Numbered from the stretch's first letter, positions 12,501 through 34,385 are shown. The stretch: 64,000 nt of DNA from Planctomycetaceae bacterium (GCA_014762625.1 JABURQ010000063.1:1-64000); one strand, 5' to 3'. Notes: a model not told the origin generated them from the sequence alone. Made by a program: numbers and translations.

Positions 12501-12909
12501 TTCGATGGTGGTGCTGACGGGGGCGGGACTGACGTTGATGATCAGTTTCATCCTCTTGAGGATCCCCACCACGCGTAATGCGCTCACGTTGTTGATGATT
12601 GCTTTGGCTTTGGCTGTTGCGGGAGTGTTTTATCCCACTTCGGTGGCCCTGCTCCTGCAACCAGCGATTCTCGGATTCTGTTTAGCATGTCTGGCGGCCT
12701 TTTTGGACAACCTGTTTCGACGACCTCAGTTGCCAAATGCCGTCATTACATTTGATGAACCCTCTCGCGGCTCCAGCCAACACACTCAAGTCCCCCATCC
12801 GTCTCTGGCTCAGATGGAGCCGGCTCTCGGTTCCGAAGACCCAACTGAACTGCGTGCCCGGGAAGTGACGGAAGAGCAGGTTTCCTCATTCATTTCTGAT
12901 GGAGAGTGA
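9586..12909 (+). CDS. Giant envelope protein, module 1 of a three-module array
   Basis: 1107 residues from the ATG at 9586, directly followed by a second ATG. A signal peptide (about residues 1-28, ending GDAQ) leads into an ectodomain of some 940 residues. This is almost entirely predicted beta structure, full of LxLxLP and RIxVP-like strands, with few cysteines. Two or three transmembrane helices occupy about residues 968-1045, followed by a 60-residue acidic cytoplasmic tail. No enzymatic motif is visible. A TATAAT hexamer at 9463-9468 could be its -10 element, though no good -35 accompanies it. The stop codon overlaps the ribosome-binding site of the next giant gene, so the two are translationally coupled. 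Likely a planctomycete-specific structural or adhesion-like envelope protein; function unknown. Confidence 0.85.
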   Translation: MMSQKSRSRIFALLCGFLVLLVTANPGDAQNGGGPSTPSVSGNSSLPNGDIIYLKDQNGRPVPVPKNASVEEYLNWLEKREAQNETRIPDYDLISLSLKGVATEKVAELEAVVALRIRKKEGAVRVPLQFNEAVLKQISHSGEGDFAFIGLNNKTGYEWNISGAGIHEITLKLSVPLTRQLPLRRLQLTVPQSPVSSLELTVGVPNASFKLPQRSAFEITPAGQQTLLTLFGLTENLDLSWQSAPESNSDRSVLEANTRIDVKLSYGNVILTTRQQIEAVSGNFDQLQIRLPEDYQLQNLQVGDELLESVSAVKDRQGWYELQLSAPTSGPVVLDWILSRPIPDLGELVKIEGFEIEGDLRQQSGQIHLAEMSGYRLLTRNQPRALFRIDVPESAGASISRSWEFYRQPFQLAFELQKIRPLYSLEPVYELNVEEEGLVWKADLELNVFRGALSELNLQWPNWQSAGWQLGTELQDGIVDRIRVDENDPDLLQLVFIEPLTAGKKRLLLTARKPFSYQSGSLAIQLPRFPAGSEPADTSLKINSVRNYEVEVGTTADVRSLPPTENVSETESLIPVASLRFPETASRNLELSVKKRQREVTTQTRIRLEYGRDSSDLKVNQALDYQIKYEELDTLRFRIPQEIAESLVVRDSEGRLLKIEFVSPGEYGQARIALSEPLLGLYSLQFDYDLPFPESTNPNGSSWRIPVIQSSDAESKSLRLELGKFLMTQYHPDPEGWQMATNPGGGIYYQSNDPAVRQEIRLQQSVPENQSQELFVRRALHLASTDGLGALSLRSEYLIAGSPDSLQIRIPDGYQLDQLLLDGEPVDDFQLVENLVEIGPSRVDRRLASREHHLSILTNTQSPDLEFGWVAKMDCNAPEILNVSWQNESMWLVELPYRHHLFLQPVSYSPLYTWQREGLFWVRTPNLSKSSLAEWIDLDPAAFEQMFVVGGNSYLFHRLGDGSKIVLGSMHRSMVVLTGAGLTLMISFILLRIPTTRNALTLLMIALALAVAGVFYPTSVALLLQPAILGFCLACLAAFLDNLFRRPQLPNAVITFDEPSRGSSQHTQVPHPSLAQMEPALGSEDPTELRAREVTEEQVSSFISDGE

Positions 12910-12913
12910 AACT

Positions 12914-15900
12914 GTGTTGAGATTGTTGCGCATGAACAGATTGTTCTGGTTGGGGATTCTACTCGCGACCATTTTACCTCAAACAGGCTTCTCGCAAACT
13001 CCCGAGACAGCAACCATCCGCAAGATCTATGTGCCCGCGGATTCTCCCGAGAGTTGGCCGGAGGGTGACTGGATTCCCGTCCCTTCCGACCGACTCAGAG
13101 ATCCCTCCGCGGAGCCGGACGCGGAGTCATTCTCACCGGCCTGGGCACGTTCCGCAAAGTATGAAGCCAGCCTGCAAGGGAATTCGCTTGTTCGAGGGAA
13201 TCTTCGAGTAGAGATTGAGCACGCCCGGCACTCAGATTCGCAGGTCCATCAATCTCTGCTCCCCTGGACCGACACAACACTGGCTGTTTCCAATCTGAAC
13301 TGGGAGTCCGGACCCGCGAAGCTAGGAAATGGTGAGGATGGAACCCCTTATTTGATGGCTTCTCCCCAGCACAAAATTCTCACGGGGAACTGGACCTATG
13401 AGGGACGCGCGCTCTCCGGCGGAGCGTTCTTCACTCTTCAGTTTCCTCCGTCCGCCGTCACGGAGTTTCTGCTGCACATTCCCCGCCGTCATGAATTGAA
13501 GTTATTCGACAGCGTGCCTGTAAAAGAACTCTCCACAGAATCCCCTCGAGAGCAAACGTTTCAGCTATCTCTAGGGAGTCGGGCGAAAGTGCGATTTTTT
13601 GTCTCCTTCGGAACAGCAGATAAGACTCACAAACGCGAACCTCAATTGTTTACCCGCGCCGAGACGTTGGTGCTGCTGGCACGCGATCAATCACGCGTTC
13701 GCCAGGAACTTTTGATCGAGTCGCTGGGATCGCCGGTGAAGTCCATCAAACTCCCCGTACCCACCAATCTCAAAGTGCGATCGATTGAGTACGGCGGAAT
13801 CACGATGAACAACTGGAATGTGACGCGCGATCCGCCTCAGACTTTGACGATTCAGTTTCCGGAACCGATAGAAGGGTTGGGACGCCCTTTGTTAATCGAC
13901 GGTCAACTCAACTACGAAGAGTCGCAATTGTGGCGGGTTCCGCATCTTCTACCACAGAATTCCCATCCCATATCCGAGACGGTCACGCTCAACGTCACTC
14001 CTCCGCACGAGCTATTAACAATTCGTCCCGAGGGGTTTCGACAGACGAGCTCCTCCACCAGTACCACCGGAGCTGGCTCTCTGACTTTCCAAAGAAGCTC
14101 CCCCGTCGCCGACATCGATGTGCGTGTCGGTCTCCCGCCAACTCGGCTGAAAACCGACTTCGTGAGTCGGCTCAATCGTGACGAGCAAAGCGTGTCGGCT
14201 GATGTTCACCTGACCGGGAGCGTCGATTCGGGAAGACTTTATTCCGTCTGGATGGAGATCGCTCCTCAATGGGATCCCCTCTCTATTGAGTTTCTCGACC
14301 AAAGCACTATGCGGTTAACTCCTGATTTGCCCTGGGCGATTGAGAGCTCGAATGGCCGACGGACCTTACGCGTGGAATTTCCCAAAGCGGTGAATCGAGA
14401 GCAGCCACTGAAGTTGACGATGAAGTTTCGTCATCGCCGCATGACCGGTGAAGCGATCCCTCAGGTTCCCGTCGTCAGAATGTCGGGAGAAATTCCCAGC
14501 CAGCAAGCTCTCCTCATTCGTCGAGAGGACTTTTCCATCGATGATGCGCAACTTGAAGCCGATGGTTGGCAAAATCTGACCGCGAATGAAGTTCCTTCCT
14601 GGATGGAAAACGCCATCAGCAGTTTGATTTCCGAGTCGAATGTTTCTGAATGGGACATGCTGGCTGCCAACAAACCTGCATTTATCGAATTGCCGATCTT
14701 TGCGAAAGACGAACCTCTTGAGGTGAACTCAATCGATCGGCTGAGGATTTCCGAGAAGAATTCAAAGCGAATCATCATTCGTGAAGAGTTGGAACTGATT
14801 CTTGAGAGTCAAAGCTCGACGCGCGAATCGGTTCAGTTCACAACAGCATCCAATGTCGATTTGAATCAGTTCTCGTGGGACGTTTTTCAATCACCTCAAA
14901 CCCGTATTGTATGTCGTCAGGTTGAAGAACCGGAAAACGTACGGGCGGTTCATGTCTGGGAACTTGAATTCGATCCTCCATTGAAATCCTCTATGCGTGT
15001 TCTCGGTACTCGAACTCAGCGAAATGGCGGAGAACTGCATGCCGTCCTTCCCGTCATCCAGGGAGAAAAAAGCTCGGGAAGACTTGAACTCGTCACCCCG
15101 CCCCACCTGACCGATCAGGTTTTGGAATTTCTGAAATATGGTTACTTGGAAGATCCTCCTCCCGAGAAGATGGCGGACACCTATGAAACTCTTTATCTCA
15201 GTGATCTCTCGACGTTGAGTATCGATCTCCCCAGGCGAGGAGACTCATCGGTACCTGTGATTTCAGACGTCAAATTACAGAGTGAGCTGATCTCCGGAGC
15301 TTCCGATCAATTTTCTCATCGAATGTTGATCGAGTTGGAAAACCCTGGTTCGGAATTTCGCATCCGGTTACCCGAACAGATTTCGGAGTTGGCTGCTTTC
15401 TTTAATGGAAATCCAGTAAGAGTTCGCGGCTTGGAGGAAGGATTGCAAAGTCTGAATCTGGAGTCACCCGCCAAGTCATTGAATCAGCTTGAACTCACCT
15501 GGAGATCGTCAGTGATTCGGAAATCGAATGGACTCTGGGGGGAGATCCCGCTCCCTCAACTTTTACTTCCTTCCGATGGACTCCAATGGCATCTCAACAT
15601 ACCGGAGGATTGTCGCGTCGAAGATTACGCCGAGCCATTCCTGCTCCAGTCCTCGCAAGTTGAGCGTCACTGGACACAGCGGTATTTCGGTCCGCTGGGC
15701 AGAACGAATTCGCGAGAACTCTTCCACCCTCTGCGTGCAGAAGAATGGCGGGGACTTCTTCAAGCCGAACCAGAGCCTGACGGGGCAGAGCAACAAGTGC
15801 TGATCTTTGAGTCGCGTCAGTTTCCAGAAACCATCCGAGTGAAGATTTGGTCGGAATCGCGACATCGGGCGTTAGCTTGGGTTGTGTTCTGCGCAACTCT

Positions 15901-18900
15901 CCTGTGCGGAGTCGCCGTTCGCATCACTCGCTGGGAAGGGCGCCTGACGTTGGTCGCCTGGAGTCTCACACTGACTCTCATCGCCTGCACGGTCGTACCC
16001 GATTCCTGGGTCACCTATTCAGGGGCAATCAATGCGGGTTTAATTGTGGCGATGCTCTTTCCCCGGATGCTGTTGCTGGGACGTCGAAAGCTCACCTCGT
16101 ATACCGGAGACGAATCTCAGATTACCGAAGCGAGCACCTTGAAGCGGGTGACGGTGGGACTTCTCTTGTCGATGACGGTCTTTCACTCAACGAACTCGTT
16201 ACTCGGTCAATCGGAATCACGGAGAACAGCCCCCCGCTCCGAGGCCGATCAAAGACGCGAAGAACCGGGCGTCGTCGATTTGTTGATCCCCTATTCGGGA
16301 GAAACTCCGAATGAGACTCTTCCTGAATTGATCTATGTGAGAGACGCGCAGAGACAGTCTTCCATTTTCTCCCCGGTTACGAAATCTCGTCCCGTGTTGA
16401 TCACCTCTGCGGATTACGAATGTCGCTTGAACCCGCAAGGGCCGGCGTCGTTCAAGATCCTGCTGACGGTCGAAGTCCCTGAAGAACCCGCCTTGGACTA
16501 TTTCACTCTGCCTCTTCAGGGAGCCAATCTGGCACGCGAAAACGGTTGCCTGGTGGAAGGACACCCGACGTCCGTCGCGATGACGGCGAATGGCGTTTTG
16601 GAAGTTCCGATTCCCCCCTCTTCGACGAGTCAATCTTCCGGGGAATGGACTCCACTTCGCGCCCCACGTCCAGACCGAAATAATTCGGCCACGCCCCGCC
16701 GGGAGAAGTATCGATCATTAGTCGTGGAATTAAACTTATATGCCTCGGTGGATATCCAGAATTCCGTTCGGCAATTTCAGCTCGCCATACCCCCCGTTTC
16801 AAATAGTCGAATGAGATGCCGCTTCCCGGAAGAGTTCATGATTGAAGAGTTCGGAGGGGCTCGGGGAGCCATCACGGAACGGACGAAATCGACGCTCGGA
16901 GCCGATTTGGGAAATACCTCCACGCTCAATTTGAAATGGCATTTCCGTCAACCTGAGACACCTCTGGAGGACACGCCCCAAGAGCCAAAGATCACTCTCT
17001 CTCCACAATATTACGTCGAGGCGTTTTCAACACACTTGAATTACCGCATTCGTGTGTCTCATTCGGTTGAGGCTGGTTCACTTTCCACGATCCGCTGGGA
17101 ACTGCCGGTCCAATTTCATTTTCGAAAAGTGCTCAGTCAACCTGTTCTGCAAACGCGAGATTATCTCGCCGACGGGAAACGGGTGGTATTGTTCGACTTG
17201 CTGGAAGAGCTGAATCCTTCTCGTTCGCCGTTTGTCATTAATGCGGAATTTGTAGTTCCGATTTCCAAACAGGAAGAAGACGAAGTGGTCGTGGACGTTC
17301 CGCAGCTTCAGCAGACTGATGAGGGCGGGGCGACATTCACCTTACTGGAGGAGTCGATGGCGAGCCTGGGGCTCTGGTCCCCTCCCGATTTACCGCTGAC
17401 ACTCCTCGAATTTCCGCTCGAGGGATTGAAGAATCTGAGTGCTGATGCTTATTTGAGTCGCTGGCCGCAGGGATCGGGGCTCCAAACCCCGCAACACGCC
17501 TTCGAATTGCGAGGTCCCTTGACACTTTCATTTTTACGCACCGAATCAAAACCTCAGAAAAAGGTTTGGGTCAAAGAGACGGGTGTCATTAGCGACCAAT
17601 TCCTGGAATGGGAGTGGTCGGGAGAAGTCCAAACGACGGAGCTACCGGCGTTCGAACATGAGTTTCTCATCGATCCGCGATTGGAGATTCTCTCTGTCAG
17701 TGTGAAAGAGGATCAGGCGGAACGAGTCAATCGCTGGTCGCGGGACGGCAACCGTTTGACGGTTCGTCTCACGCGAAAAGCAGAAGAGAGTTCGCAAGAC
17801 GTTCGAATTCAGGCCCGGATGGAACTCGGGCTCAAGGAGAACGCGACGCGACACGAGGAAGAAGTGGAGTTGCCGGAGATTCGCCTGTTGACGGGAGAGC
17901 GAATGGAGGCGATCGCGGAACTGTTTGTGGTACCGACGCGAACCATTCGATGGAAAAATGGGCGGGTTCCTACTGGGGGAAGTACGGAAGTGAGTTCTGC
18001 GAGCCGTTCGGAAACCCTGTCGAGTTTTGATCTGTTTTCGAGACTCGAAGGAAGTCCCGCCGAACAAACAATTATTGTCGGTGAGAAGACGATCCCTCCC
18101 CATATTCACAGGTTGATTCAATTCGAAAAACGGGCGGATGACGATTTTGATGTGGTTTGTCGCCTCACCGATCACCAGCCGGAGAACGTTCTGGGAGCTC
18201 TGGAATTAATCGTTCCGGAAACCTGGATTCCCCGATTGCGAGTGGAACGGGATGAGGAATCCGATGCCGAAATATCACGCGAACTCAATGAGAACGGCAC
18301 TCTCACGTTGACGATTCCTGAAAAGCTCCGAGGAACGACTCTGGTCTTGCGGACGACCCTCGCCGCCTCCGATCAGAAAACCTGGTTGGTTTCCTGGCCG
18401 GAAGCCTCTTCGGAGGCGGTTTACCAGAATGAAGTGAGTCTCAAACTTGCCGATGGCTGGGCTCCCCGTATGGAATGTCGTCTGGAGGAAGAAGGGACGC
18501 CACCGCTGAAGAATGAGGGGGCTCACTTCGATCGTTGGGAATATTTGTGTGATCAACTGGAACTCCAGAAGACCGAAGTCTCTGACCCTTCTGCTGTCCC
18601 GTTCATTCCTCTTCTGGTCTCGCGGGTCGATATCCGCCCTGGGAAAGTGATTCAGGGAGAATACGGGATCATCTATCGGGGTCGAGGACGCGAGCAAATT
18701 GAGCTGACGCTCCCCTTCCCCGCATTGGTGCATTCGGTACGTCGAGCGGGTGAAATTGTCGAATCGGACTGGGATGAGGAGCATCGACTTCTGAAATTAC
18801 CTTTGACCCAGGACGCTGGCTGGCAGTTCTTTGCGATCGACTGGTCTTCCACAGACCCTTTCACCCCCGGAATGCTGTCTGAAATGAATCTACCGTTTCC

Positions 18901-19624
18901 CGCCATCTCTGAAATCGAGGTGGGTCAGCAACAAGTCACTCTGCTCTCCTCCTCCGATCTGAAATTGATGATGTACCACGGCGTTCAACCTCAATCTCGA
19001 GCGGAATACCGACTGACATTACTGGAAACATTAACGCGTCAACTGAAAGAAGATCGCGTGGATGTCCTCAAGCTGCCTCAGGATATCCAAACACTCTTTG
19101 TCTCTCTCATCCAGGACGAACTCGCAAACGACTCATTCTCAAACGATAAATTTCGTAACAAACAAGCACTCCTGAATCGGTATGAAAAAGCCCGATCAGA
19201 TTTCCTGTCCCAGATGCCGGAAGAAATTCTGGAACGCGCCGCAGAAGCCCCGGCGAAGATGGCGTCAACCTCCGTCGGAACACTGATGGCGTTTGATGCA
19301 GAAAGCGATTTGCCGGGACAAACGGTTCTGTATGCGGTCGCAGAGCAGGAACCGGAATCATCGAAGGTCTGGTGGCTGGTTCGACTCTGGTATCTGCTGG
19401 GAATATGCGTGGTGGCTGCCGCTGTGATGATTCCGCTATTCTGCTGGGGATTACGCGAATCAACAGCTAATTGGATCGCCCAAAATCGAGTCTATCTATG
19501 GATGTTTATCGGCTTGCTGTGGTGGACTTGTTTGCAACTCAGTTTTGTGGGGCTGGTGATATTGGCGCTCGCTTTGATCTCGCGGCTGATCTCTCCATTC
19601 ACTTCCCGTCGCCGCGTTTACTGA
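12914..19624 (+). CDS. Giant envelope protein made of two fused modules
   Basis: About 2236 residues from a GTG at 12914, four bases after the upstream stop. GGAGAG within the end of the previous gene sits about 7 nt ahead, better than the unsupported ATG at 12899. The architecture is signal peptide (ending GFSQ), then a beta-rich ectodomain to about 980. A transmembrane cluster (about 982-1059) follows. A second signal-like helix (VTVGLLLSMTVF, about 1078-1099, ending LLGQ) leads into a second beta-rich ectodomain (about 1100-2150) and a final transmembrane cluster (2151-2230). Each half repeats the plan of the neighbouring 1107-residue protein. Each module starts with a similar IYV/IYL strand, then a Y-[DE]-x2-[SC]-L strand. 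No catalytic motifs seen. Probably a scaffold or assembly factor of the cell envelope; function unknown. Confidence 0.85.
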   Translation: MLRLLRMNRLFWLGILLATILPQTGFSQTPETATIRKIYVPADSPESWPEGDWIPVPSDRLRDPSAEPDAESFSPAWARSAKYEASLQGNSLVRGNLRVEIEHARHSDSQVHQSLLPWTDTTLAVSNLNWESGPAKLGNGEDGTPYLMASPQHKILTGNWTYEGRALSGGAFFTLQFPPSAVTEFLLHIPRRHELKLFDSVPVKELSTESPREQTFQLSLGSRAKVRFFVSFGTADKTHKREPQLFTRAETLVLLARDQSRVRQELLIESLGSPVKSIKLPVPTNLKVRSIEYGGITMNNWNVTRDPPQTLTIQFPEPIEGLGRPLLIDGQLNYEESQLWRVPHLLPQNSHPISETVTLNVTPPHELLTIRPEGFRQTSSSTSTTGAGSLTFQRSSPVADIDVRVGLPPTRLKTDFVSRLNRDEQSVSADVHLTGSVDSGRLYSVWMEIAPQWDPLSIEFLDQSTMRLTPDLPWAIESSNGRRTLRVEFPKAVNREQPLKLTMKFRHRRMTGEAIPQVPVVRMSGEIPSQQALLIRREDFSIDDAQLEADGWQNLTANEVPSWMENAISSLISESNVSEWDMLAANKPAFIELPIFAKDEPLEVNSIDRLRISEKNSKRIIIREELELILESQSSTRESVQFTTASNVDLNQFSWDVFQSPQTRIVCRQVEEPENVRAVHVWELEFDPPLKSSMRVLGTRTQRNGGELHAVLPVIQGEKSSGRLELVTPPHLTDQVLEFLKYGYLEDPPPEKMADTYETLYLSDLSTLSIDLPRRGDSSVPVISDVKLQSELISGASDQFSHRMLIELENPGSEFRIRLPEQISELAAFFNGNPVRVRGLEEGLQSLNLESPAKSLNQLELTWRSSVIRKSNGLWGEIPLPQLLLPSDGLQWHLNIPEDCRVEDYAEPFLLQSSQVERHWTQRYFGPLGRTNSRELFHPLRAEEWRGLLQAEPEPDGAEQQVLIFESRQFPETIRVKIWSESRHRALAWVVFCATLLCGVAVRITRWEGRLTLVAWSLTLTLIACTVVPDSWVTYSGAINAGLIVAMLFPRMLLLGRRKLTSYTGDESQITEASTLKRVTVGLLLSMTVFHSTNSLLGQSESRRTAPRSEADQRREEPGVVDLLIPYSGETPNETLPELIYVRDAQRQSSIFSPVTKSRPVLITSADYECRLNPQGPASFKILLTVEVPEEPALDYFTLPLQGANLARENGCLVEGHPTSVAMTANGVLEVPIPPSSTSQSSGEWTPLRAPRPDRNNSATPRREKYRSLVVELNLYASVDIQNSVRQFQLAIPPVSNSRMRCRFPEEFMIEEFGGARGAITERTKSTLGADLGNTSTLNLKWHFRQPETPLEDTPQEPKITLSPQYYVEAFSTHLNYRIRVSHSVEAGSLSTIRWELPVQFHFRKVLSQPVLQTRDYLADGKRVVLFDLLEELNPSRSPFVINAEFVVPISKQEEDEVVVDVPQLQQTDEGGATFTLLEESMASLGLWSPPDLPLTLLEFPLEGLKNLSADAYLSRWPQGSGLQTPQHAFELRGPLTLSFLRTESKPQKKVWVKETGVISDQFLEWEWSGEVQTTELPAFEHEFLIDPRLEILSVSVKEDQAERVNRWSRDGNRLTVRLTRKAEESSQDVRIQARMELGLKENATRHEEEVELPEIRLLTGERMEAIAELFVVPTRTIRWKNGRVPTGGSTEVSSASRSETLSSFDLFSRLEGSPAEQTIIVGEKTIPPHIHRLIQFEKRADDDFDVVCRLTDHQPENVLGALELIVPETWIPRLRVERDEESDAEISRELNENGTLTLTIPEKLRGTTLVLRTTLAASDQKTWLVSWPEASSEAVYQNEVSLKLADGWAPRMECRLEEEGTPPLKNEGAHFDRWEYLCDQLELQKTEVSDPSAVPFIPLLVSRVDIRPGKVIQGEYGIIYRGRGREQIELTLPFPALVHSVRRAGEIVESDWDEEHRLLKLPLTQDAGWQFFAIDWSSTDPFTPGMLSEMNLPFPAISEIEVGQQQVTLLSSSDLKLMMYHGVQPQSRAEYRLTLLETLTRQLKEDRVDVLKLPQDIQTLFVSLIQDELANDSFSNDKFRNKQALLNRYEKARSDFLSQMPEEILERAAEAPAKMASTSVGTLMAFDAESDLPGQTVLYAVAEQEPESSKVWWLVRLWYLLGICVVAAAVMIPLFCWGLRESTANWIAQNRVYLWMFIGLLWWTCLQLSFVGLVILALALISRLISPFTSRRRVY

Positions 19625-19649: not shown

Positions 19650-21647
19650 TTAGAGACGATCCAGAGAATCGAGCCAGATGGAAATTTCCTCGAGGCGTGC
19701 CGGAGTAGGATAGGTGTGTCCGCGTCCTTTGAGAACTTGAAAGACCACCGGGAACTTGAGGCGTTTCAGGATTTTGACCGAGGCATCGACTTTTTCAAAC
19801 TCCGGATCCTCATCTCCGCAGCTGAAGAGTAATTGCAGTCGATATTCGGGGTCGTTTTCCGGCGGACGTGACGGAATCGGAGCCCCGGCAATTGCGGCAG
19901 CACGAAAGGTGTCCCTGTATTTGAATGCCAGGTGCGCTGCGAATGCCCCTCCGGAACCGTAGCCGTGAATGGCGATTCGTCGATCATCAATGCGATATCG
20001 GGATTTGATGTCGAGCACGGCGTCTTTAATGAACTCTGCTTCATTCAGATTCCAGGCTCCGATCTTTGCCGCTTTGGGACCGATCATGATCAGTCCTCTG
20101 CGTTCGCAGAGTTGTTGCCAATCCTGGGCGATACTAGCTTCCATCGTATCGCCGCCCGGATGAATCCAGACCACCAGTCCGTATTGGTAGGAGGGATTGT
20201 AATCGTTGGGAATGTAGGCCCAATACTCATGGTTGTGGGCCTCCATCGGGACGGTGACAAATCCCGTCGGAAGATCTTTATCCACATCCCCTTCCTCCGG
20301 CGGAGGGATAAATTCATCGAGAAGTTCGACGGGAATCTCTTCGGTGGTTGTGGTTAACGTCAGCTTTACCGTCTCTTTCAAATTGCCTCGTTCAAACGTC
20401 ACGCTCACTTCGTTCTCGGGGCGTTCGCGTGAAATCAGAGTCCAGAGATCGGCATATTCTTTCACCGGTTCTCCCTGAAACTCCACAATGCGGTCATCTT
20501 TCTTCAAGCCCGCCTGATCGGCCGCGCTCTCCGTGTAGACGTAGCGAACAGTCACGCCGGTTCGGGGAGCGTCGATCGGTTCCCGTGTGGGCAGAATTCC
20601 CAGAAAGCCGGATTCGTAAGGTATGAGCGTTTCCACGAGAGTCATTGTGGTTTCGATAACTTCCTCGCCTTTCCGGAACGTGGCGGGAATCGTTTCTCCC
20701 GCGTAGTGCGTTCCGAGTGCATAGCGAAGGTGTCCCACGCGGCTCAAAGGCATCTCGTCAACAGAGAGCAGGATGTCTCCCCGCCTCATACCGGCGCGAT
20801 ATGCGGGGGAGTCGGGACGAACCATGTCGATTTCCAATTCGCCCTCAGTGAGATCGTTGCGGCGGAAGGTGACTCCCATGAGGCCCGGGTGAAGGTCTTC
20901 ACCTTCCTTGAGCCGGTCCAGAATGGCGTACACGTCTTCCAGAGGGATGGCGAAACCGATTCCGGAATCGTACCACTCAACCCCTGCGGTTTCTGTGGTT
21001 GCGGATGCGGAGAGCGGGACCAGTACTCCCATCACTTTGCCTTCAATATTCAGTAACGGTCCTCCGTAGTTGACGGGAGAGACTTTGGCATCGGTCTGAA
21101 TCGCTTTTCCCCAGATACGGTTTAACGCACTGACGATTCCGATCGAAACATTCGGGACCTGAGCTGAATAGGTTCGTCCCGCGGCGATCGCCCACTGCCC
21201 GACCGCGAGTTCGTCTTTGGGAACCGGAATGGCCGGTTTGAGATTCTCTGCCTCGATCTTTAACAACGTCAACATGCGGGAACGGTCTGTCGCCACTTCA
21301 ATTGCGGGAAAGCGACGCCCGTCCGCAAGTTCGACCAGCACGGAGGCTGGTTTGGAAATAAAATTGAACGCGGACGAGATGATATAACCATCTTCACTGA
21401 CGACCAGCCCCGAGGTCGGACCGGTACTGGTGAGAATCTGCCCTACACGATCGAGTCCGCCGACAGTCTGGATCCGGACGATTGAAGGTTCCGCGAAGGC
21501 GACCGCCTGTTTGAAGGCTTGTTCTTCCAGTTCCGTCAAAGAGGGAGATTCCTGCGCCTCGATGCGAAGCGTTGAAGACGCGAGGGTCAGCAAAAGTGCC
21601 AAGCCGAGTCGCGCGCACGAGATATTCAGACTGTTCATAAATGACAT
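19650..21647 (-). CDS. Pseudo-HtrA: triad-less trypsin-like domain, two PDZ domains, esterase-like domain
   Basis: 665 residues from the ATG at 21647, with a signal peptide to about residue 31. The trypsin-like domain (about 45-240) aligns well with the HtrA protease two genes upstream. All three catalytic positions are changed: His to F94, Asp to M125 and Ser to Y194 (VNYGGPL replaces GNSGGPL). Two PDZ domains follow (about 260-345 and 355-435), both with the typical AGxxxGD-x-I turn. The C-terminal 190 residues look like an alpha/beta-hydrolase of the polymer-depolymerase or feruloyl-esterase type. In its nucleophile elbow, GYGSGG, Gly occupies the expected Ser position; candidate Asp (CGDED) and His (GRGHTYP) are present. 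It likely binds rather than cleaves peptides. It is the last gene of the minus-strand run, 17 bp beyond the previous stop. Confidence 0.9.
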   Translation of the reverse strand: MSFMNSLNISCARLGLALLLTLASSTLRIEAQESPSLTELEEQAFKQAVAFAEPSIVRIQTVGGLDRVGQILTSTGPTSGLVVSEDGYIISSAFNFISKPASVLVELADGRRFPAIEVATDRSRMLTLLKIEAENLKPAIPVPKDELAVGQWAIAAGRTYSAQVPNVSIGIVSALNRIWGKAIQTDAKVSPVNYGGPLLNIEGKVMGVLVPLSASATTETAGVEWYDSGIGFAIPLEDVYAILDRLKEGEDLHPGLMGVTFRRNDLTEGELEIDMVRPDSPAYRAGMRRGDILLSVDEMPLSRVGHLRYALGTHYAGETIPATFRKGEEVIETTMTLVETLIPYESGFLGILPTREPIDAPRTGVTVRYVYTESAADQAGLKKDDRIVEFQGEPVKEYADLWTLISRERPENEVSVTFERGNLKETVKLTLTTTTEEIPVELLDEFIPPPEEGDVDKDLPTGFVTVPMEAHNHEYWAYIPNDYNPSYQYGLVVWIHPGGDTMEASIAQDWQQLCERRGLIMIGPKAAKIGAWNLNEAEFIKDAVLDIKSRYRIDDRRIAIHGYGSGGAFAAHLAFKYRDTFRAAAIAGAPIPSRPPENDPEYRLQLLFSCGDEDPEFEKVDASVKILKRLKFPVVFQVLKGRGHTYPTPARLEEISIWLDSLDRL

Positions 21648-21664
21648 TTCAAATCGCAACAGGA

Positions 21665-22723
21665 TTAGTTGGTGTCAGGTTTGTTGGGAACCAGAGTCTC
21701 GACGGTAATCAGGGCATCATCGCGCCGGACAATCAGCGACAAATCATCCCCCGCCTCAAGGTTGCCGAGTTGTTCGCGAAACTCCCGGCACGATTGCACC
21801 AGATTGTCGTTCACGAACAACACGAGGTCGCCGGGCCTCAGATTCAGCTCGGCGGCAATCGAACCGTCTTCCACCACTTCGATGTAGGCGGGGGTCCGAA
21901 AGACGACATCGGGAACCATCAATATCCCGAAATCGAGTGGTTGGTAACTGAGAGGATTGTCTTCGTTGTCGTTTTTTGTCTGCTGAGAGACGTAGTCGCC
22001 CGACATGATCTGCCTGATGACCGGAGTCAGTTCGGACATCGGCATCGCATAGTTGATCCAGGTGTTGGACTCGTTGTTGCGCAGTTCTTTGCCGATCATG
22101 GCCAGTAACTGACCGTCGGTGGTGGTGACCAGTCCCCCTCCCGCTCCCGGATTATTCGTGATCGCATCGATAATATAGACCGGCCCATCGTAGGGGACTT
22201 CATAGGCTCCTCGGCGGGCGGTTAGTTTTGTTTTGGCGGCGATGACGCCGTGTAGAATGGAGACCGGTTCGTCTCCCGTCGCGACCTTGAACATATTGCT
22301 GAATGCCAGAATTCGAGTACCGGGGACGGCGGAAGTCGTTTCTTCCAGATCGAAGTAGGGAAGCTGCAAACCTTCGCGGACAATTTTGAGAACCGCGAGA
22401 TCGAGTTGGGGCTCGGCTCCTAGAACAGCCGCGGTTTCCTTACGACCGTTGGCAAGGATGACCGTCACTTGATCCCGATCCAGAACATGACTCCAGACGG
22501 TGACGATATGACCTTCCGGGCTGACGAGGAATCCGGTGCTGTAGGAATGCAGATTCCGCAGACCTCCCGCTCCAAAGATTTTCACCATCTTCGGTTGAAT
22601 CATTTGCGACACTTGTTCGTTCGTATCGACTTGTGCGAGGCTCTGGACCGGAACCAGAAGTCCGGCCAGCAAGACCGCATAGGCCGCGAGGAAACGAAGT
22701 CGATCGGAAGGTAATGTATTCAT
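21665..22723 (-). CDS. HtrA-like protein lacking the catalytic serine, one PDZ
   Basis: 352 residues from the ATG at 22723; a much longer frame upstream overlaps the preceding gene and lacks a signal peptide at its start. The signal peptide ends near residue 31 (SLAQ). In the trypsin-like domain His79 (WSHV) and Asp108 (LDLAVLKI) are kept. The oxyanion/nucleophile loop reads NPGAGGGL, so the Ser is Gly195. A single degenerate PDZ domain follows (about 265-345, RPGDLVLFVND). It is probably proteolytically inactive and may act as a binding partner or adaptor for the active relative immediately upstream, with which it is almost contiguous (22 bp). Confidence 0.9.
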   Translation of the reverse strand: MNTLPSDRLRFLAAYAVLLAGLLVPVQSLAQVDTNEQVSQMIQPKMVKIFGAGGLRNLHSYSTGFLVSPEGHIVTVWSHVLDRDQVTVILANGRKETAAVLGAEPQLDLAVLKIVREGLQLPYFDLEETTSAVPGTRILAFSNMFKVATGDEPVSILHGVIAAKTKLTARRGAYEVPYDGPVYIIDAITNNPGAGGGLVTTTDGQLLAMIGKELRNNESNTWINYAMPMSELTPVIRQIMSGDYVSQQTKNDNEDNPLSYQPLDFGILMVPDVVFRTPAYIEVVEDGSIAAELNLRPGDLVLFVNDNLVQSCREFREQLGNLEAGDDLSLIVRRDDALITVETLVPNKPDTN

Positions 22724-22745
22724 AAAACTGAGAGGCGTTAGAGGC

Positions 22746-24494
22746 TTAGTTGGAGGTAACTTGTTTTCCGGCCGGTTTCGGGCCCGGCGAGAAGTTGATG
22801 GACTCAATGGTCCATTGATCGTATTGTTCCCCGCCGCTATGAATCGTCCAACCGGACGGAAACTGAAGATCTTCAAAGGCCTGAATTTCTCCGAAGCGAA
22901 CTTCGCATTCGTCGAGATCGTCTCTGACTTGAGTGTCGAATCCCAGGAACTGTCCGGTTTCATCATCGAAGTACCATCGACTCTCCACCGACGTGAGTTC
23001 GCTGGTCAGCACATCGACGCGATTCCCCAAACCGTCCAGAGGTTCGGTCCCCAGATACTGAAACTCGGAGAACAGAAATCCGTGATGCGTCAGAAACAGA
23101 CGCAGATGATACAGCGCCACTAACAGTCCGCCGCTGTTTTCCGGAGCATCTGTCAGCGGTGCGCCATCGAACGTTTGCGTCCAGGTCTTCTTGCCCAGGG
23201 TTAACTCCGTTTTCTCCTGATCGAGCTCCATCTTGAAGGCGGTTCCCGCCACGTTTCGCCCCGTCAGCACCCAGGAGCCGTTGCGAGAGGCGTAGTCTCC
23301 CCACTCGTTGAATGTTGCAAGGACACGATTCTGTTCCCGGCGATTGAACTCGTAGTTCGCGTAGCCCGTTTTCTTTTCATACAACCCCTGAAACGGTTTA
23401 GGGATGGGATTTTCTTTGGCAGCCGGTTTTTGTTCGTCCGAGTTGGGCTTCTTCTCGGGGGGAGGTTCGATCTTCTTTTTCTCACCCGGTATCAGTTCCG
23501 CGGCGTTATGCAGTCCCCGGAGACGGACGCGAATGGTCTGTTTTTCCTGGTTCCGACGAAATTCGAGAGGGAGCTTCCACCCTTTGGGGTAGATTCCCAG
23601 AATATTTTTGTATTGATTGACGCTCCGAATAGGCCGCCCCGCGAACGAGACAATTTCATCTCCTTGTCGCAAACCGCGCCGGTAGGCTTCCGAATCCTCC
23701 AGAATGGTTTCGACGACCACTGAACCGTCGGACAACGACGTCACGGTCGCTCCCAGAGTGGCATGATCGACGACCCGTCCCGATTTCAAATGGCCGAGAA
23801 AGTTCATGATCTGATTGATGGAGATCGCATAGCCGGCGCCCGAATTGACGCGCCCTCTTTTTTCGAATGAGCCGCGACCGTTGATTCCGACCAGTTCTCC
23901 ATCATCGTTAAACAGCGGCCCGCCCGAGTTACCGGGGTTGATGGAACTGTCGGTCTGAATGCAATCGGTGTATTCCAAAATCGTTCCCGCCGGATACTGG
24001 TATCGATGCACGCCGCTGACGATGCCGTAAGTCACCGTCGGTTTGAAATCGGTTGCCAGAAGGAACGGATTCCCCATGGCGTACACCCAGTCTCCCGCTT
24101 GGAGGTTGTCGCTGTTTCCGATTTCAGCGACTGGAAAATCGTCTCGACCGAGAAGTTTCAGCAGAGCCACGTCGCCGGTCGGGTCGATCCCCACAATCAC
24201 GGCGTCGTACAGATTGCCGTCATTCAAACCGCACTTCATGAAGTCACCGGCGCCACTGGTAACGTGAAAGTTGGAGAGAGCGTATCCATCCTTGGAGATT
24301 AAAACTCCAGATCCTCCTCCCCCTTCCCCGCTCGCCGAAAAAATCGCCACAACCGAGTCGGAAACCTTATCGATTACCTCGATTCGCTTCTGCTGCGCTT
24401 CGAGGACCGTGGTGTCGGCCGCCTGGAGCCCGGCGTTGAACGAACCGATTACGAGGCCGATCGTCAGAAGAAACAGATATCGAGCAATGGTCAT
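22746..24494 (-). CDS. HtrA/Deg-like serine protease with PDZ and unique C-terminal domain
   Basis: 582 residues from the ATG at 24494, where a signal peptide begins. The catalytic triad is complete: His77 (SNFHVTSG), Asp108 (PTGDVALLKL) and Ser190 (GNSGGPL), so it should be an active periplasmic protease. One PDZ domain lies at about 240-325. After a Lys/Pro/Glu-rich linker (330-380) comes a C-terminal domain of about 200 residues with many aromatic positions (YANYEF, WYFDDETGQF). I do not recognise it in standard Deg proteins; it resembles domains that bind or sense substrates but cannot be named. First of three tandem Deg-like genes. Confidence 0.92.
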   Translation of the reverse strand: MTIARYLFLLTIGLVIGSFNAGLQAADTTVLEAQQKRIEVIDKVSDSVVAIFSASGEGGGGSGVLISKDGYALSNFHVTSGAGDFMKCGLNDGNLYDAVIVGIDPTGDVALLKLLGRDDFPVAEIGNSDNLQAGDWVYAMGNPFLLATDFKPTVTYGIVSGVHRYQYPAGTILEYTDCIQTDSSINPGNSGGPLFNDDGELVGINGRGSFEKRGRVNSGAGYAISINQIMNFLGHLKSGRVVDHATLGATVTSLSDGSVVVETILEDSEAYRRGLRQGDEIVSFAGRPIRSVNQYKNILGIYPKGWKLPLEFRRNQEKQTIRVRLRGLHNAAELIPGEKKKIEPPPEKKPNSDEQKPAAKENPIPKPFQGLYEKKTGYANYEFNRREQNRVLATFNEWGDYASRNGSWVLTGRNVAGTAFKMELDQEKTELTLGKKTWTQTFDGAPLTDAPENSGGLLVALYHLRLFLTHHGFLFSEFQYLGTEPLDGLGNRVDVLTSELTSVESRWYFDDETGQFLGFDTQVRDDLDECEVRFGEIQAFEDLQFPSGWTIHSGGEQYDQWTIESINFSPGPKPAGKQVTSN

Positions 24495-24549: not shown

Positions 24550-25764
24550 TCACTTGATGAGTCGTGCATCGCCTAATGCGAGATGATCGGCCACTGCCAG
24601 ATCGGCACCAAAATCGACCAGGATCTCAAGATCGCGTTTTCCGGCGATATCGAAATCGAGGGGAATCGGCTCATCGCTGCCGGTCACATCACCCTCAAAT
24701 AAAATCTCGTCGTCTGCTTTGATGACGACATGAGTGTGCCCCTTGTTCCCCACCAGTTCTTCAATCCCCATGGTCGACTGGAGACGACGGTACTGACCGC
24801 CCAGGCGATAACGGAGCAATGTTTTGGAGTGAATGCAAAGACCCTTTTTGAACGACTGATTGCCGATCCGGATGGGACTGCCGTCGAAGTTTTCATCGAT
24901 TCGCATTTTCCATTCTTCATCGAAGAAAGGAGTGTACTCGTTGACTCGTGGTTCCAGATCGGAGAGATAAACCAATCGTCCCTGCCGAAAGTCGATCATG
25001 TCGATGTCGTCGAGAGTCGTCTCCAGAGCCAATCCGGAGGCCGAAACCGCCGAGAGCTTGCCGTCGGAATAACTCAATGTGGAAAGCGGAAAGCGATCGT
25101 CGTTCGCCATCAACAAGCTCCCAACCGCCTCGGTTGAGCCAATTTTTCGGCTCAAAATGATACCGAACACCTTATCCACACCAACCGGTATTTCTTCGCC
25201 GTCGAGCAGGAAGTAAACCGCTTTCTCGTCGAGTTTGGAAATCACCCCTTCCACGAAGTCGATCGATTCTTCCTTGTTGATCACCAGCAGATCCTGCTTG
25301 GAATCGCGATCGAGAATTTCTTTCCAGCGCGCCAGTGTCGTGGCATTCCCCTCCGAATATCGAAGGTGATGAAGCAGACTCCCCTTCCCTTTCAGAACAC
25401 CGAGATGGGGCGTCTCAGCGGAAAATTGTGTGCCGTCGTAGCGCACCTGGCTGGTTTTCAACAAGCTGCCATCGACGAGCGCCAGATGTTTCAAGATTTC
25501 TTCCGATCCAATCGTCTCTTCCCGATCAGCGATTTCGATCGTCAAAATGCCATCCCGCGAAAACGTCTGGATCTCACCGTCAATTTGCAGAGTTGCCGCG
25601 TCGGCAGAGAGTTCTTTTAATTCACCTCGAACCGCGGAACCGGTCAAAGGCGTCACTTCCACCAAAGTGGATTGAGCGGATACCGGGAAAACGCAAACGG
25701 AGAGAACCATCCCCAGAATGATTGTCTGCAGGTACTTTTGGATGCCGGGGCTCAAGTCGGTCAT
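24550..25764 (-). CDS. Secreted protein with NPCBM-type carbohydrate-binding domain
   Basis: 404 residues with a signal peptide (cleavage near residue 31, VSAQ). The first 270 residues consist of repeated short beta units. Lines such as DGSLL, VEGVISKLDEKAVYFLLDGE and DGKLSAVS recur, like a repetitive beta-solenoid or barrel that handles hydrophobic or sugar ligands. The last 110 residues match the NPCBM/NEW2 jelly-roll: KGLCIHSKTLLRYRL, a central GIEELVGNKGH and terminal DFGADLAVADHLALGDARL. The domain is linked to glycan binding in other proteins. The position between a helical secreted protein and the active Deg protease suggests an extracytoplasmic role in the same operon. Confidence 0.85.
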   Translation of the reverse strand: MTDLSPGIQKYLQTIILGMVLSVCVFPVSAQSTLVEVTPLTGSAVRGELKELSADAATLQIDGEIQTFSRDGILTIEIADREETIGSEEILKHLALVDGSLLKTSQVRYDGTQFSAETPHLGVLKGKGSLLHHLRYSEGNATTLARWKEILDRDSKQDLLVINKEESIDFVEGVISKLDEKAVYFLLDGEEIPVGVDKVFGIILSRKIGSTEAVGSLLMANDDRFPLSTLSYSDGKLSAVSASGLALETTLDDIDMIDFRQGRLVYLSDLEPRVNEYTPFFDEEWKMRIDENFDGSPIRIGNQSFKKGLCIHSKTLLRYRLGGQYRRLQSTMGIEELVGNKGHTHVVIKADDEILFEGDVTGSDEPIPLDFDIAGKRDLEILVDFGADLAVADHLALGDARLIK

Positions 25765-25805: not shown

Positions 25806-26852
25806 TTATTCGGGGCTGCGGCCTGCCGATTTCCGGAAGTAAGCTTCGATGGCTCGACGATAATTTTCCGGAAAGTCACGTTTCAACAGGTTCTTGGCTT
25901 TAGTCACTTCCGTTTCCGGCAACGCTCCCCAGCCGGCCTGTTTTTTCAAATCCTTTTCCTCGACTTCACCGGGAGCCGTTGTTCCTTTCACAACACTTTC
26001 CTGCGACCCTCCACCGGGTTGATTGGTGTTTCCGCCGGATCCGCTTCCTCCCCCCGATCCGTTCGATTGTTCGATTTTCTCGATGATAGAGTCGAGAAGG
26101 GTGACGATTTCTTCTTCCTTCTTTTGCGTTTGTTGACCGCCGCGCCCCAGAGAGAGGCGACGCTTCACATCCTTCATGCGTTGCGCCACTTCATCGAGAG
26201 ATTCGTCCTTGATCGCCGCCAGTTGAAACTTCATCAATTCGGCAATCGTAGCGTAACGTTCGGGAACCGCTTCGGTCTTTTTTGTGAGTGTCTCGATCGT
26301 CGCCAAGCCTTCCGCTTTCATGAGCAGTTCGGATTGGGCGACGGCCTGATGGAAGAGTGCGGTCGGTGGGTCGGCGGAATATTTGAGATCGAGTTTATCG
26401 AAGTAAGGCAAAGCTTCATCGTAGAGCTTCTTGCGAACGAGATAGACCGCGTAAAATTGCGTCAGGTTGTTGCGAAAAAAGTCCGAGTATCGAGGATCGT
26501 CCAGCAGTTCGGGAACCGGAATGTCATGAGCCGGACTCGACAAGCGGCAGCCGGACACAAACCGATCGACCTCCGGGTCGATGACTCGAAAGGTTTCCAT
26601 GACTCGCGAAAAGATTTCAGACGAATTGGGGATCGCATCGGGCGAAGCCCAAATCTCGCCGACTTTGGTTTTGACCGACTCGTTGTCGATTTTTCGACTG
26701 GCGACTTCATCGAGCACGCGCGTTTTGACTTCTTCAAAACGGGGCGTTTCGATCAGATCCAATTCCTGAGCATCGGCGGTCATGGAACTGGACACCATGA
26801 CGGTCGTCACGACGAGAAAGGCTCGCAAGGATCGATTGAGAAGTTGACTCAT
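25806..26852 (-). CDS. Secreted helical (TPR-like) protein
   Basis: 348 residues; the ATG at 26852 is preceded by GGAGAATACT. A signal peptide ends near residue 29 (ADAQ). The mature protein is mainly alpha-helical. Residues 125-230 contain YAVYLVRKKLYDEALPYFDKL and similar paired helices like a degenerate TPR. A Gly/Ser/Asn/Gln-rich hinge follows (about 265-300) and a short helical C-terminus (RDFPENYRRAIEAYF). No enzyme motif. It is separated by only 23 bp from the upstream gene, with which it is surely co-transcribed. A scaffold or binding role is inference. Confidence 0.8.
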   Translation of the reverse strand: MSQLLNRSLRAFLVVTTVMVSSSMTADAQELDLIETPRFEEVKTRVLDEVASRKIDNESVKTKVGEIWASPDAIPNSSEIFSRVMETFRVIDPEVDRFVSGCRLSSPAHDIPVPELLDDPRYSDFFRNNLTQFYAVYLVRKKLYDEALPYFDKLDLKYSADPPTALFHQAVAQSELLMKAEGLATIETLTKKTEAVPERYATIAELMKFQLAAIKDESLDEVAQRMKDVKRRLSLGRGGQQTQKKEEEIVTLLDSIIEKIEQSNGSGGGSGSGGNTNQPGGGSQESVVKGTTAPGEVEEKDLKKQAGWGALPETEVTKAKNLLKRDFPENYRRAIEAYFRKSAGRSPE

Positions 26853-26875: not shown

Positions 26876-28792
26876 TTATTGATTCCGGCCAGTCGCCAGA
26901 TCGTAAGTGGTTTTCTGAATGCGCGATTGTCGCCGGGACAATTCCTGGAGTTGATCGACGACTTCCGGCGATTCCGCCGCTTCTCCCCGGAACTCGCGAG
27001 CCAGCACGCGCGTGCGGCGGTTAATCCGTAACTGAAGCGAGCGTAGCATTTTCAATTCCGCTAATTTATCGACCAGAGGGGGAGGCGATTGTTGTTGCTG
27101 CTGCTGTTGTTGCTGTTGCTGCTGCTCTTCTTCCGACTTTTCCATCTCTTTTTGCAGGGATTCGATAATCTCCTGTAACGCTTCGATGAGATCTTCTTCG
27201 ATCACCTGCGTCAGTTCGCCGGCTTGCGATTGTTCCAGCCGACGGGCGACCGTCAACATATCGGACCGCATCTGTTCGATGGCTTCGGGGAATGCAATCG
27301 ACGATCCTTCCGCTTTCAATAGATCGAGCGCTTTGACCGCCTCCAAGGCAATTTCATCCTCGGTTTGCGCTAGTTCGCGCGACCGGGCATGGTGGCGAGA
27401 GGTCCAGTCCGCAGAAGGGGTTTTGTCGAGGTTGATCGTGCCGGTGTAGACCATCAATTGCATCGCCAGCATTTTCTGGAAACGTGCTTCCAAAGCGGCC
27501 AGCAGCAGCTCTCGCTCCTCTTCCCGCAGTTGCCGCAGGATTTCCTCAAGTTTCGCCTTGGCCTCCTCCAGTTTGGCGATGGCTTCGGATTGTTCCCGGG
27601 AGGCGTTCCCTCGATTTTTCTTCTTCAGTTCCTCAATGGCCCGTTCCATCTTTTCCACCGACTCGGCGATTTCATCCCGACCGGCTGTTTTGTTTTCATC
27701 GTTTTGCTGTTGATCGGAATGCTCCCCGGCGGGCTGTTGTCCGGATGGAGATTCGCCCTTGGGCTGTTGGCCCTGTTGCTGTTGTTGAGATTGGCCCTGT
27801 TGAGACTGGCCTTCCTGGGACTCCCCTTCTTGCGGCTTGCCGGACTGGCTTTCTCCCGACTGACTCGACTTCGATTCACCTTCCTTGGGCTCTCCCTTCT
27901 TGCCTTCTTGGCCGGCTTGGGAGTCTCCCTCCTGAGGCTCTCCTTCTTTGGGTTTACCTTCTGTCTGTTCTCCCGGCTTCTGTTCGCCGGACTGAGAATC
28001 TCCCGGTTTCCCTTCCCCTTCCCGAGGTTCTCCTTCACCCGGTTTTTTCTCTCCTTCGCCGGACTCTTTCCCTTCGCCCTGCTCGCCTTCAGCCGGGTTT
28101 CCTTCTCCCGATTCTTGTCCTTCGCCGGGTTCGTTTTCTCCGGTTTGCCCCTCCCCCTCGGCTCCTTCTTCGGCGGCTTTGGCACGACGCTCTGCATCCT
28201 GCTCGTCGATTTTATCGACGAGCTTGCGTCCGGACGCTTCGGCAATTTCCTGACGTTCGATGGCTCGTTGAATCTCATCGCCGCGTTCGTTCGAAGCCCG
28301 TGCGTCTTTGGCTTTACCGAGGGTGATCTGGAGGTCTTTGAGGATTTGCTGGATCCGTTCCTGCTCCGCCTGAAGTTCGCTGCGTCGGTCTCCGCTCTGC
28401 AAGAGATCCAGCAATGATTGCAATGACGTGATCACCTTGTCTTCGCGATCCATCGCATCGCCGAAGCGTTTCTCTTCGAGCAACGCGGTGATCTGGGACA
28501 TCTCGGTCGAGATTCGATCCGATTTACTTTGACCGATTCCGCGGACGAGCAGATCGGCCTGTTCCGGATCCGTCTTACGCATGTATTCCGCCATTTGCAG
28601 GAGCAAGCGTTCAAAACGTTTATACTTTTGCGCTACAGCATCTTGACGTTCGTGGAGATCGAGTGACGTCTCCGCGGCAGGAGCGTCGTCGGTCTCTTCG
28701 GTCTGAGCGAGAACAACCGTCGATGAAGGAACCAGCGCCCCGAAGGCCAAGATTCCGGCCAGAAGGCATGTCAGAACAATTTTGGATCGCAT
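26876..28792 (-). CDS. Secreted coiled-coil protein with long Glu/Gly/Lys/Gln-rich region
   Basis: 638 residues from the ATG at 28792, which has GGGAG upstream and starts a signal peptide (ending near VLAQ). Domains: an N-terminal helical coiled-coil (about 35-210); a very low-complexity region (about 215-365) of short GEG, KPGE, PKEGE and SQSGE-like repeats; a second coiled-coil (about 370-540, EEAKAKLEEILRQLREEERE); a poly-Gln run near 555-570; and a helical C-terminus with many Arg. The same composition appears fused to a DUF4175-like protein at 51575-54964. The protein is likely extended or disordered, and may be a spacer or phase-separating scaffold. Low complexity also leaves long stop-free frames on the opposite strand, which I do not take as genes. 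Confidence 0.82.
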   Translation of the reverse strand: MRSKIVLTCLLAGILAFGALVPSSTVVLAQTEETDDAPAAETSLDLHERQDAVAQKYKRFERLLLQMAEYMRKTDPEQADLLVRGIGQSKSDRISTEMSQITALLEEKRFGDAMDREDKVITSLQSLLDLLQSGDRRSELQAEQERIQQILKDLQITLGKAKDARASNERGDEIQRAIERQEIAEASGRKLVDKIDEQDAERRAKAAEEGAEGEGQTGENEPGEGQESGEGNPAEGEQGEGKESGEGEKKPGEGEPREGEGKPGDSQSGEQKPGEQTEGKPKEGEPQEGDSQAGQEGKKGEPKEGESKSSQSGESQSGKPQEGESQEGQSQQGQSQQQQQGQQPKGESPSGQQPAGEHSDQQQNDENKTAGRDEIAESVEKMERAIEELKKKNRGNASREQSEAIAKLEEAKAKLEEILRQLREEERELLLAALEARFQKMLAMQLMVYTGTINLDKTPSADWTSRHHARSRELAQTEDEIALEAVKALDLLKAEGSSIAFPEAIEQMRSDMLTVARRLEQSQAGELTQVIEEDLIEALQEIIESLQKEMEKSEEEQQQQQQQQQQQQSPPPLVDKLAELKMLRSLQLRINRRTRVLAREFRGEAAESPEVVDQLQELSRRQSRIQKTTYDLATGRNQ

Positions 28793-28912
28793 CGTCGGTC
28801 TCCCGGATTCTTCAACAGAATCAGTTCGAATTGTTTCGCAACTTGTCAATCTTACCCGAGGAGCCGGAATCAGACGAGAGGAATGTGTCGGATTCCTGGG
28901 GCTCCTGCATTC

Positions 28913-33641: not shown

Positions 33642-34385
33642 TTACAGCCGAGAAGGATCTTCGTCGGCAAAGGGGTGCAGGGATCGGAGTGTCTTTTCTT
33701 TGGGCACGACGGCGAGCAGTGCTTCCGCCATCTTCAGGTCGTCCTGGGTCGTAATTTTCAGGTTGATGGCCGAGCACTGCACGATGGACACCGATTTTCC
33801 CAGATTTTCCACGAGTTGGGCTTCATCCGTGGCGTTCAGGCCTCCCCGCTGAGCGAAAGCTTCTTCGAGCAGAGATTTTAGAAAGACTTGCGGTGTCTGG
33901 GCCTCCCACAGTTCGTCCCGGGAGACGGTTTCCTCAATGGTGTCACCCGTTTTGACGCGTTTCAGAGTCGAAGCCACTTTGTGAGCGAGGATGGCCGCGT
34001 TGGTCTCGACCGCTTTGGCAAACACGTCGTCGATCCATTTTTTTGCCAACAGAGGTCGGGCGGCATCGTGGACGGCGACAAAGTCGATCCCCTCCTTCAC
34101 TACTGCCAACCCATTGGCGACGGAGTCTGCCCGTTCGGCTCCTCCGAGCACGATATCGATGTTCATAAACGCCAGATTGGGGCGAAATTTTTCTTTGAAA
34201 CGTTCTTCGTCCTCCGGGGAGATGACAATGATCGTTTGGGCAACATCCTGCCGTTCAACAAAATGTTCGGCGGTTCGGATCCAGACCGCACGCTCTTTGA
34301 GGTTGGTAAACACTTTTTTGTCTCGGGCATTTCCGAAACGGCTGCTTTTCCCGGCGGCGGGAAGGATGACGGCAAATTTCGACAT
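33642..34385 (-). CDS. ispD: 2-C-methyl-D-erythritol 4-phosphate cytidylyltransferase
   Basis: 247 residues. It makes CDP-methylerythritol in the non-mevalonate isoprenoid pathway. The CTP-binding N-terminus reads PAAGKSSRFG (residues 9-18) with the catalytic Lys in DKKVF, and VAVHDAARPL lies near residue 108. The length and order are typical for the single-function enzyme; no ispF fusion. GGGAGTCC is a plausible ribosome-binding site. It may be co-transcribed with a tiny possible lipoprotein gene upstream. Confidence 0.94.
   Translation of the reverse strand: MSKFAVILPAAGKSSRFGNARDKKVFTNLKERAVWIRTAEHFVERQDVAQTIIVISPEDEERFKEKFRPNLAFMNIDIVLGGAERADSVANGLAVVKEGIDFVAVHDAARPLLAKKWIDDVFAKAVETNAAILAHKVASTLKRVKTGDTIEETVSRDELWEAQTPQVFLKSLLEEAFAQRGGLNATDEAQLVENLGKSVSIVQCSAINLKITTQDDLKMAEALLAVVPKEKTLRSLHPFADEDPSRL

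Follow-up and report, generated by a model that had tools for sequence, protein, structure and literature searches.

Why would a bacterium keep, beside an HtrA-type protease, two related genes whose products lack the catalytic residues? The question is raised by three co-directional HtrA-like genes, here called A, B and C, on the minus strand of a 64,000-nucleotide stretch of DNA from a Planctomycetaceae bacterium (GCA_014762625.1 JABURQ010000063.1:1-64000; this whole stretch is referred to as the window). An original prediction had listed the residues at the catalytic positions of the three products, had taken B and C for maintained pseudoproteases and had suggested that they form with A a hetero-oligomeric sensor or chaperone. 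The open reading frames (ORFs), their order, strand and residues were all found as described. The pseudoprotease reading of B and C is strongly supported by our analysis, and a hetero-oligomer of A with B and C is plausible. The features of the trio are given below, with residues numbered from starts at 24494 (A), 22723 (B) and 21638 (C).

22746-24494, minus: gene A, active HtrA-type protease, 582 amino acids (aa) (Trypsin_2 2.9e-32, PDZ_2 7.8e-7, triad in orthologues)
23883-24314, minus: protease domain of A
23520-23759, minus: single PDZ domain of A
22749-23387, minus: orphan C-terminal domain of A
23925-24266, minus: span of the catalytic triad of A (His77 24264-24266, Asp108 24171-24173, Ser190 23925-23927)
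21665-22723, minus: gene B, pseudoprotease, 352 aa (Trypsin_2 1.6e-18, PDZ_2 8.5e-9, AlphaFold2/Foldseek, substitution rates)
22097-22537, minus: protease-like domain of B
21695-21889, minus: single PDZ domain of B
22139-22141, minus: Gly195 of B, at the catalytic Ser position
19650-21638, minus: gene C, pseudoprotease, 662 aa (Pfam including Trypsin_2 1.2e-17, NCBIfam, AlphaFold2/Foldseek, substitution rates)
21024-21413, minus: protease-like domain of C
about 20649-20888, minus: first PDZ domain of C
20355-20570, minus: second PDZ domain of C
19653-20270, minus: hydrolase-like domain of C
21066-21068, minus: Tyr191 of C, at the catalytic Ser position, within the conserved QTDAKVSPVNYGG loop
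21366-21368, minus: Phe91 of C, at the His position
21273-21275, minus: Met122 of C, at the Asp position
19956-19958, minus: Gly561 of C, at the alpha/beta-hydrolase nucleophile position

Read from the sequence, the positions of the catalytic triad are occupied by His77, Asp108 and Ser190 in A, by His79, Asp108 and Gly195 in B, and by Phe91, Met122 and Tyr191 in C, and the loops around the Ser position are NPGNSGGPL, NNPGAGGGL and SPVNYGGPL, respectively. All three proteins have the HtrA/DegP fold and layout, with a trypsin-like domain followed by at least one PDZ domain, and give profile matches to DegP, DegQ and DegS. Signal peptides and PDZ domains had been claimed for the whole trio; the latter were confirmed by Pfam (one in A, one in B and two in C), and the N-termini resemble Sec signal peptides as judged by eye, which is also how export was assigned. 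With 225, 84 and 180 bits for A, B and C, the curated cut-off of TIGR02037, the NCBIfam family for Do-family endopeptidases (416 bits), was not reached, and the three proteins thus fall outside that named subfamily. The 800-bit cut-offs of the NCBIfam families MamE (NF040960) and MamO (NF040961) were not reached either, the best scores being 113 and 57 bits, both for A.

We have then compared the operon regions of 40 genomes of the order, of 20 genomes that belong to the class but to other families, and of additional loci, which provided 62-66 orthologues per gene. The 62 aligned rows of A contained the catalytic His in 60, the Asp in 61 and the Ser in 61 cases, with gaps in the remainder, meaning that the triad was present in every readable sequence. 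The oxyanion-hole Gly was likewise found in every readable orthologue. These are the features of an HtrA serine protease, and A is predicted to be the only protease of the trio. The C-terminal domain of A (~210 residues) has positions conserved over the order and matched no known family in the Pfam and solved-structure searches; a LolA/RseB-like identity, guessed by eye, was unsupported in the same searches. A second set of 80 loci with named organisms, which partly overlaps the first and is nearly all from Planctomycetota (including Gimesia, Schlesneria and Planctomicrobium), gave the same residue picture at the catalytic positions of A, B and C.

In B, the Ser position was occupied by Ala (45), Gly (16) or other residues (5) and never by Ser (0/66), so that this protein does not have the features of an HtrA serine protease. 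The oxyanion-hole Gly193 was present in 66/66 orthologues, the His position held His in 44/66, and Asp or Glu stood at the Asp position in 56/66. The AlphaFold2 model of B had a predicted local distance difference test (pLDDT) score of 87.9, and its best Foldseek matches in the PDB were DegQ, DegS and DegP. With an oxyanion-hole Gly, often the His and the Asp, and no nucleophile, B is the natural equivalent of the Ser-to-Ala HtrA mutant made in the laboratory.

The corresponding Ser position of C carried Tyr in 65/66 and Val in 1/66 orthologues; the His position was taken by Phe, Tyr, Glu or Ala, and the Asp position was never Asp. With His, Asp and Ser each at 0/66 and the oxyanion-hole Gly gone as well (0/66), the features of an HtrA serine protease are missing from C. 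Its AlphaFold2 model (pLDDT 90.3) had DegP and DegQ as best Foldseek matches in the PDB. Catalytic residues placed elsewhere, or relatives with intact triads, would have argued against the pseudoprotease assignment. No relative had an intact B or C triad, and a conserved His was sought throughout the C protease domain and none was found, the best column reaching 12/66. A relocated Ser-His-Asp triad in C is therefore excluded.

C also ends in an alpha/beta-hydrolase domain (DLH 1.2e-5 by Pfam; PHB-depolymerase-like 8.8e-17 by NCBIfam, below its cut-off), which is present in Planctomycetia and absent from the genomes outside this class. An active alpha/beta hydrolase would combine an elbow Ser with a catalytic His; the window has Gly561 at the nucleophile position, Ser occurred in 4/62 readable orthologues (8/41 in the second set) and the His in 12 orthologues. 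With Gly in place of the nucleophile in the window, and with Ser in only a minority of orthologues, this domain is usually dead too.

Could B and C still be catalytic through non-canonical residues, as proteases or esterases? The former active-site loop of C has a conserved Lys185 (61/66) and Ser187 (66/66), and the minority of orthologues with Ser at the hydrolase nucleophile position points in the same direction. However, the C protease domain has neither a conserved His nor the oxyanion-hole Gly, B has no nucleophile, and the hydrolase domain, with its Gly in the window, is missing from the genomes outside the class. We consider such residual catalysis very unlikely.

We have next examined whether B and C are maintained proteins. 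B was present in 170/170 genomes of the order and C in 167/170, the three genomes without C being 74-83% complete. The ratios of nonsynonymous to synonymous substitution rates (dN/dS), obtained from a single pair of loci (L031 and L032) because the window and its congeners are saturated at synonymous sites, were 0.060 for A, 0.047 for B and 0.045 for C, the values of the two pseudoproteases being as low as that of the protease. Among 13-residue stretches, the former active-site loop had the highest conservation in both A and B; in C it came second, below AGVEWYDSGIGFA alone. The low dN/dS and the strong conservation of this loop indicate that B and C are maintained, as had been proposed. Decay of the genes is ruled out by the dN/dS values and by ORFs that are intact across the order, the class and the phylum, and chance or mis-annotation by residues and a gene order that recur in 14 families within the class and in genomes beyond this class.

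The source genome is rich in HtrA-like genes, with 18 Trypsin_2 matches, which would fit an ordinary expansion of paralogues, with B and C heading for loss. The remaining clear HtrA-like proteins of this genome, however, retain the Ser of the GxSGG motif, which makes the two dead copies special to the A-B-C locus. This explanation is also at odds with the presence of B and C in the whole of the order and class, with dN/dS values close to 0.05 and with the age of the A, B and C clades (see below), and we give it almost no credence. The same genome has a second neighbouring pair of trypsin-like matches (L079, G000:C203:5300-7800), one with GDSGG and the other a partial match.

In the protease-domain tree, A, B and C formed three separate clades, each with 100/99 support and each following the species. 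The genomes L121, L122 and L123, from outside the class, branched outside the class members in every clade; A, B and C were thus already distinct before those classes separated. The catalytic losses of B and C are ancient and fixed. Another genome from outside the class (G294, locus L120) has a full-length C beside B and A, possibly on a misbinned Planctomycetia contig; it is 6% contaminated and was left out as evidence of spread. B and C lay on one side of the tree with 96/81 support, and we have not relied on this sister relationship, since the stems are long and the root was placed at the midpoint. The loss of the triad had been called stepwise, a term that the tree did not bear out: the three deep clades have no intermediates from which an order of loss could be read. 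"Stepwise loss" would describe three end states and not a path that the tree demonstrates, for instance one of C through a B-like stage.

The setting of the trio was then analyzed. R-Q-T-N-A-B-C is a co-directional cluster in most genera, preceded by BatA and V2, and N-A-B-C stand in this order in 14 families within the class as well as in three genomes from other classes. Of the thirteen upstream regions that were checked, most reached as far as MoxR and DUF58; one of the thirteen, from another class, had the same genes with additional ones interspersed. Assembled from overlapping loci, the ancestral order comprises 11 genes, MoxR-DUF58-BatA/VWA-V2-R-Q-T-N-A-B-C, with the trio at the 3' end, and its adjacent MoxR ATPase, DUF58 and BatA/VWA genes are those of a Bat/MoxR-DUF58-VWA operon. 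In L123 and L136, from another class, MoxR-DUF58 adjoins A. The operon genes of the window other than the trio are the following.

24550-25764, minus: gene N, NPCBM/NEW2-domain protein, directly upstream of A (PF08305 2.4e-26, synteny)
25806-26852, minus: gene T, conserved operon protein without a named Pfam or NCBIfam family (synteny, alignment)
26876-28849, minus: gene Q, conserved coiled-coil-like protein, Gln/Glu-rich (synteny)
28913-31489, minus: gene R, conserved membrane protein, DUF4175-like (synteny)
34667-41500, plus: other operon half, MoxR-DUF58-BatA-V2 (Pfam; contiguous with R to C in other genomes)
34667-35749, plus: MoxR ATPase
35688-36599, plus: DUF58 protein
36630-38888, plus: BatA/VWA protein
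38759-41500, plus: V2

Membership of R in DUF4175 was not upheld, as 1/20 orthologues matched PF13779 (3.5e-8) and the R of the window did not. In the lineage of the window the operon is split into MoxR-DUF58-BatA-V2 (34667-41500, plus strand) and R to C (31489-19650, minus strand), with a zinc-ribbon-type gene (31596-33455) and ispD (33642-34385) in between; the halves are joined in related genera. Since they lie on opposite strands with two other genes between them, the link of the trio to MoxR was invisible to the original prediction. Further BatA/VWA genes (46533-48881 and 57346-59769) and a glutamine-amidotransferase-like membrane gene (GATase1_like, 55053-57326) lie in 46533-59769 and make up a second, perhaps a third, Bat-type cluster near the first. 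On the other side, two very large adjacent proteins of 1,141 and 2,241 aa without a clear Pfam family are encoded convergently to the trio (9484-19624), and relatives of the 2,241-aa gene lie downstream of C in L031, L040, L043 and L047.

One family, f77, bears on whether the trio acts together. Four of its loci (L158-L161) read MoxR-DUF58-BatA-V2-R-T-N and lack A, B and C; when 13 f77 genomes were searched in full, the matches to A and C were of the ordinary HtrA type and none was full-length. As exactly A, B and C are missing from this operon, the trio appears to come or go as a set, and this, with the fixed gene order, lends indirect support to a hetero-oligomer. Between T and N, the same loci carry an unassigned ORF of about 400-500 aa, and their R is fused or longer (about 1,320-1,350 aa).

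We consider it probable that A, B and C are one extracytoplasmic HtrA-type set in which A has B and C as non-catalytic partners and which serves the maintenance of the envelope. That much of the phylum has retained the trio points to an important role of the two dead enzymes beside A, other than cutting. The three proteins would be exported and in contact with each other, with A cutting and B and C never doing so. By analogy with MamO, DegP S210A and AtDeg7 (see below), B would act as a client-binding, non-cutting HtrA, and C as a regulator or receptor whose former active-site loop has turned into a fixed QTDAKVSPVNYGG binding surface. Both may bind clients or signals, such as unfolded envelope proteins or C-termini recognized through the PDZ domains, and most likely would hold clients for A or activate it, just as MamE is switched on by MamO without catalysis. 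The trio would presumably cooperate with the Bat-like MoxR/VWA membrane machinery. More tentatively, and with less confidence than we place in a partnership as such, A-B-C may be a dedicated asymmetric HtrA complex, in which A cuts while B and C receive clients or signals without cutting, and which serves the planctomycete MoxR-VWA machine as its extracytoplasmic output in the biogenesis or quality control of the envelope.

Several observations weigh against a partnership of this kind. The contact between A, B and C is one that we infer, and every gene of the operon is conserved, so that shared conservation by itself is no proof of a complex. In several genera (e.g., g51), C lies apart from A-B, and in genus g15 (L036, L037) B has no A orthologue beside it and C lies elsewhere, from which strict co-translation would seem unnecessary. 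Moreover, neither the His nor the Asp of B is held constant (44/66 orthologues have the His), which implies that B is not merely a frozen Ser-to-Ala enzyme. The neighbour of B in g15 is a protein of 860-880 aa with a weak HtrA match, this genus being a natural break-up of the trio.

The separability of C also fits a different explanation, in which B and C are repurposed binding proteins (for instance metal, glycan or peptide sensors) whose function does not depend on A and which share the operon only for co-expression with MoxR/VWA. The QTDAKVSPVNYGG loop of C is an almost fixed novel surface, and the MamO protease domain likewise has a metal-binding role separate from the activation of MamE (PMC4794232). 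Independence of A does not readily explain why f77 lacks A, B and C together and still has the rest of the operon, nor why the N-A-B-C order is kept at phylum depth; we regard it as rather doubtful.

The partnership of A with B and C has counterparts among known systems. Few pairs of an active and a dead HtrA protein are known, among them MamE/MamO and plant Deg7. In the former, the inactive MamO is required for MamE-dependent proteolysis and its triad is not (PMC4794232). The trio resembles this pair in having active and catalytically dead HtrA-like genes in one conserved cluster, and C shares with MamO the loss of the Gly at position 193 (PMC4794232). Unlike that pair, the trio has two dead partners and belongs to a MoxR/VWA operon and not to a magnetosome island, and where MamO has a TauE transporter, C has two PDZ domains and the alpha/beta-hydrolase domain. 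In plants, AtDeg7 trimerises through its inactive protease domain (PMC3473262). Active and inactive HtrA protease domains are kept together in Deg7 as in the trio, the inactive one serving oligomerisation, but in one fused eukaryotic polypeptide and not in three separate bacterial genes.

With DegP, DegQ and DegS the trio shares the fold and the protease-PDZ layout, and C has two PDZ domains, as DegP and DegQ do. B resembles DegP S210A, which has lost protease activity and kept the chaperone function (PMC5023192). In contrast to the subunits of these one-gene homo-oligomers, B and C have no catalytic residues and are always accompanied by A. The MoxR ATPase, DUF58, BatA/VWA and further membrane proteins are also found in the Bat/MoxR-DUF58-VWA operons of Bacteroides, Borrelia, Leptospira and Rhizobium (RL3499-RL3502), described in passages of PMC5700661. 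The planctomycete version differs in the addition of R-Q-T-N and the HtrA trio; the passages in question name no HtrA genes in those operons, and they report that defects in the comparable operon of Rhizobium alter the envelope and the cell morphology.

Among the papers that were searched, none was relevant to planctomycete pseudoproteases, to MoxR/DUF58 operons with HtrA or to the A-B-C trio, and the trio genes do not appear in the main text of the Planctopirus limnophila essential-gene paper (PMC10632474). The phylum has an unusual cell plan, in which a role of the trio in the envelope would be set. The locus may also offer a lead on the envelope role of MoxR-DUF58-VWA operons, whose task may be to supply or regulate an HtrA module. 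The trio combines two distinct losses, both deeply fixed, occurs in almost every Planctomycetia family examined and is linked to a MoxR/VWA operon whose mechanism is unknown; it would rank among the oldest and most widespread bacterial pseudoprotease systems. An active HtrA with inactive partners is a known theme; what is new here, compared with the systems above, are the two different dead partners, the depth of their conservation and the MoxR/VWA context.

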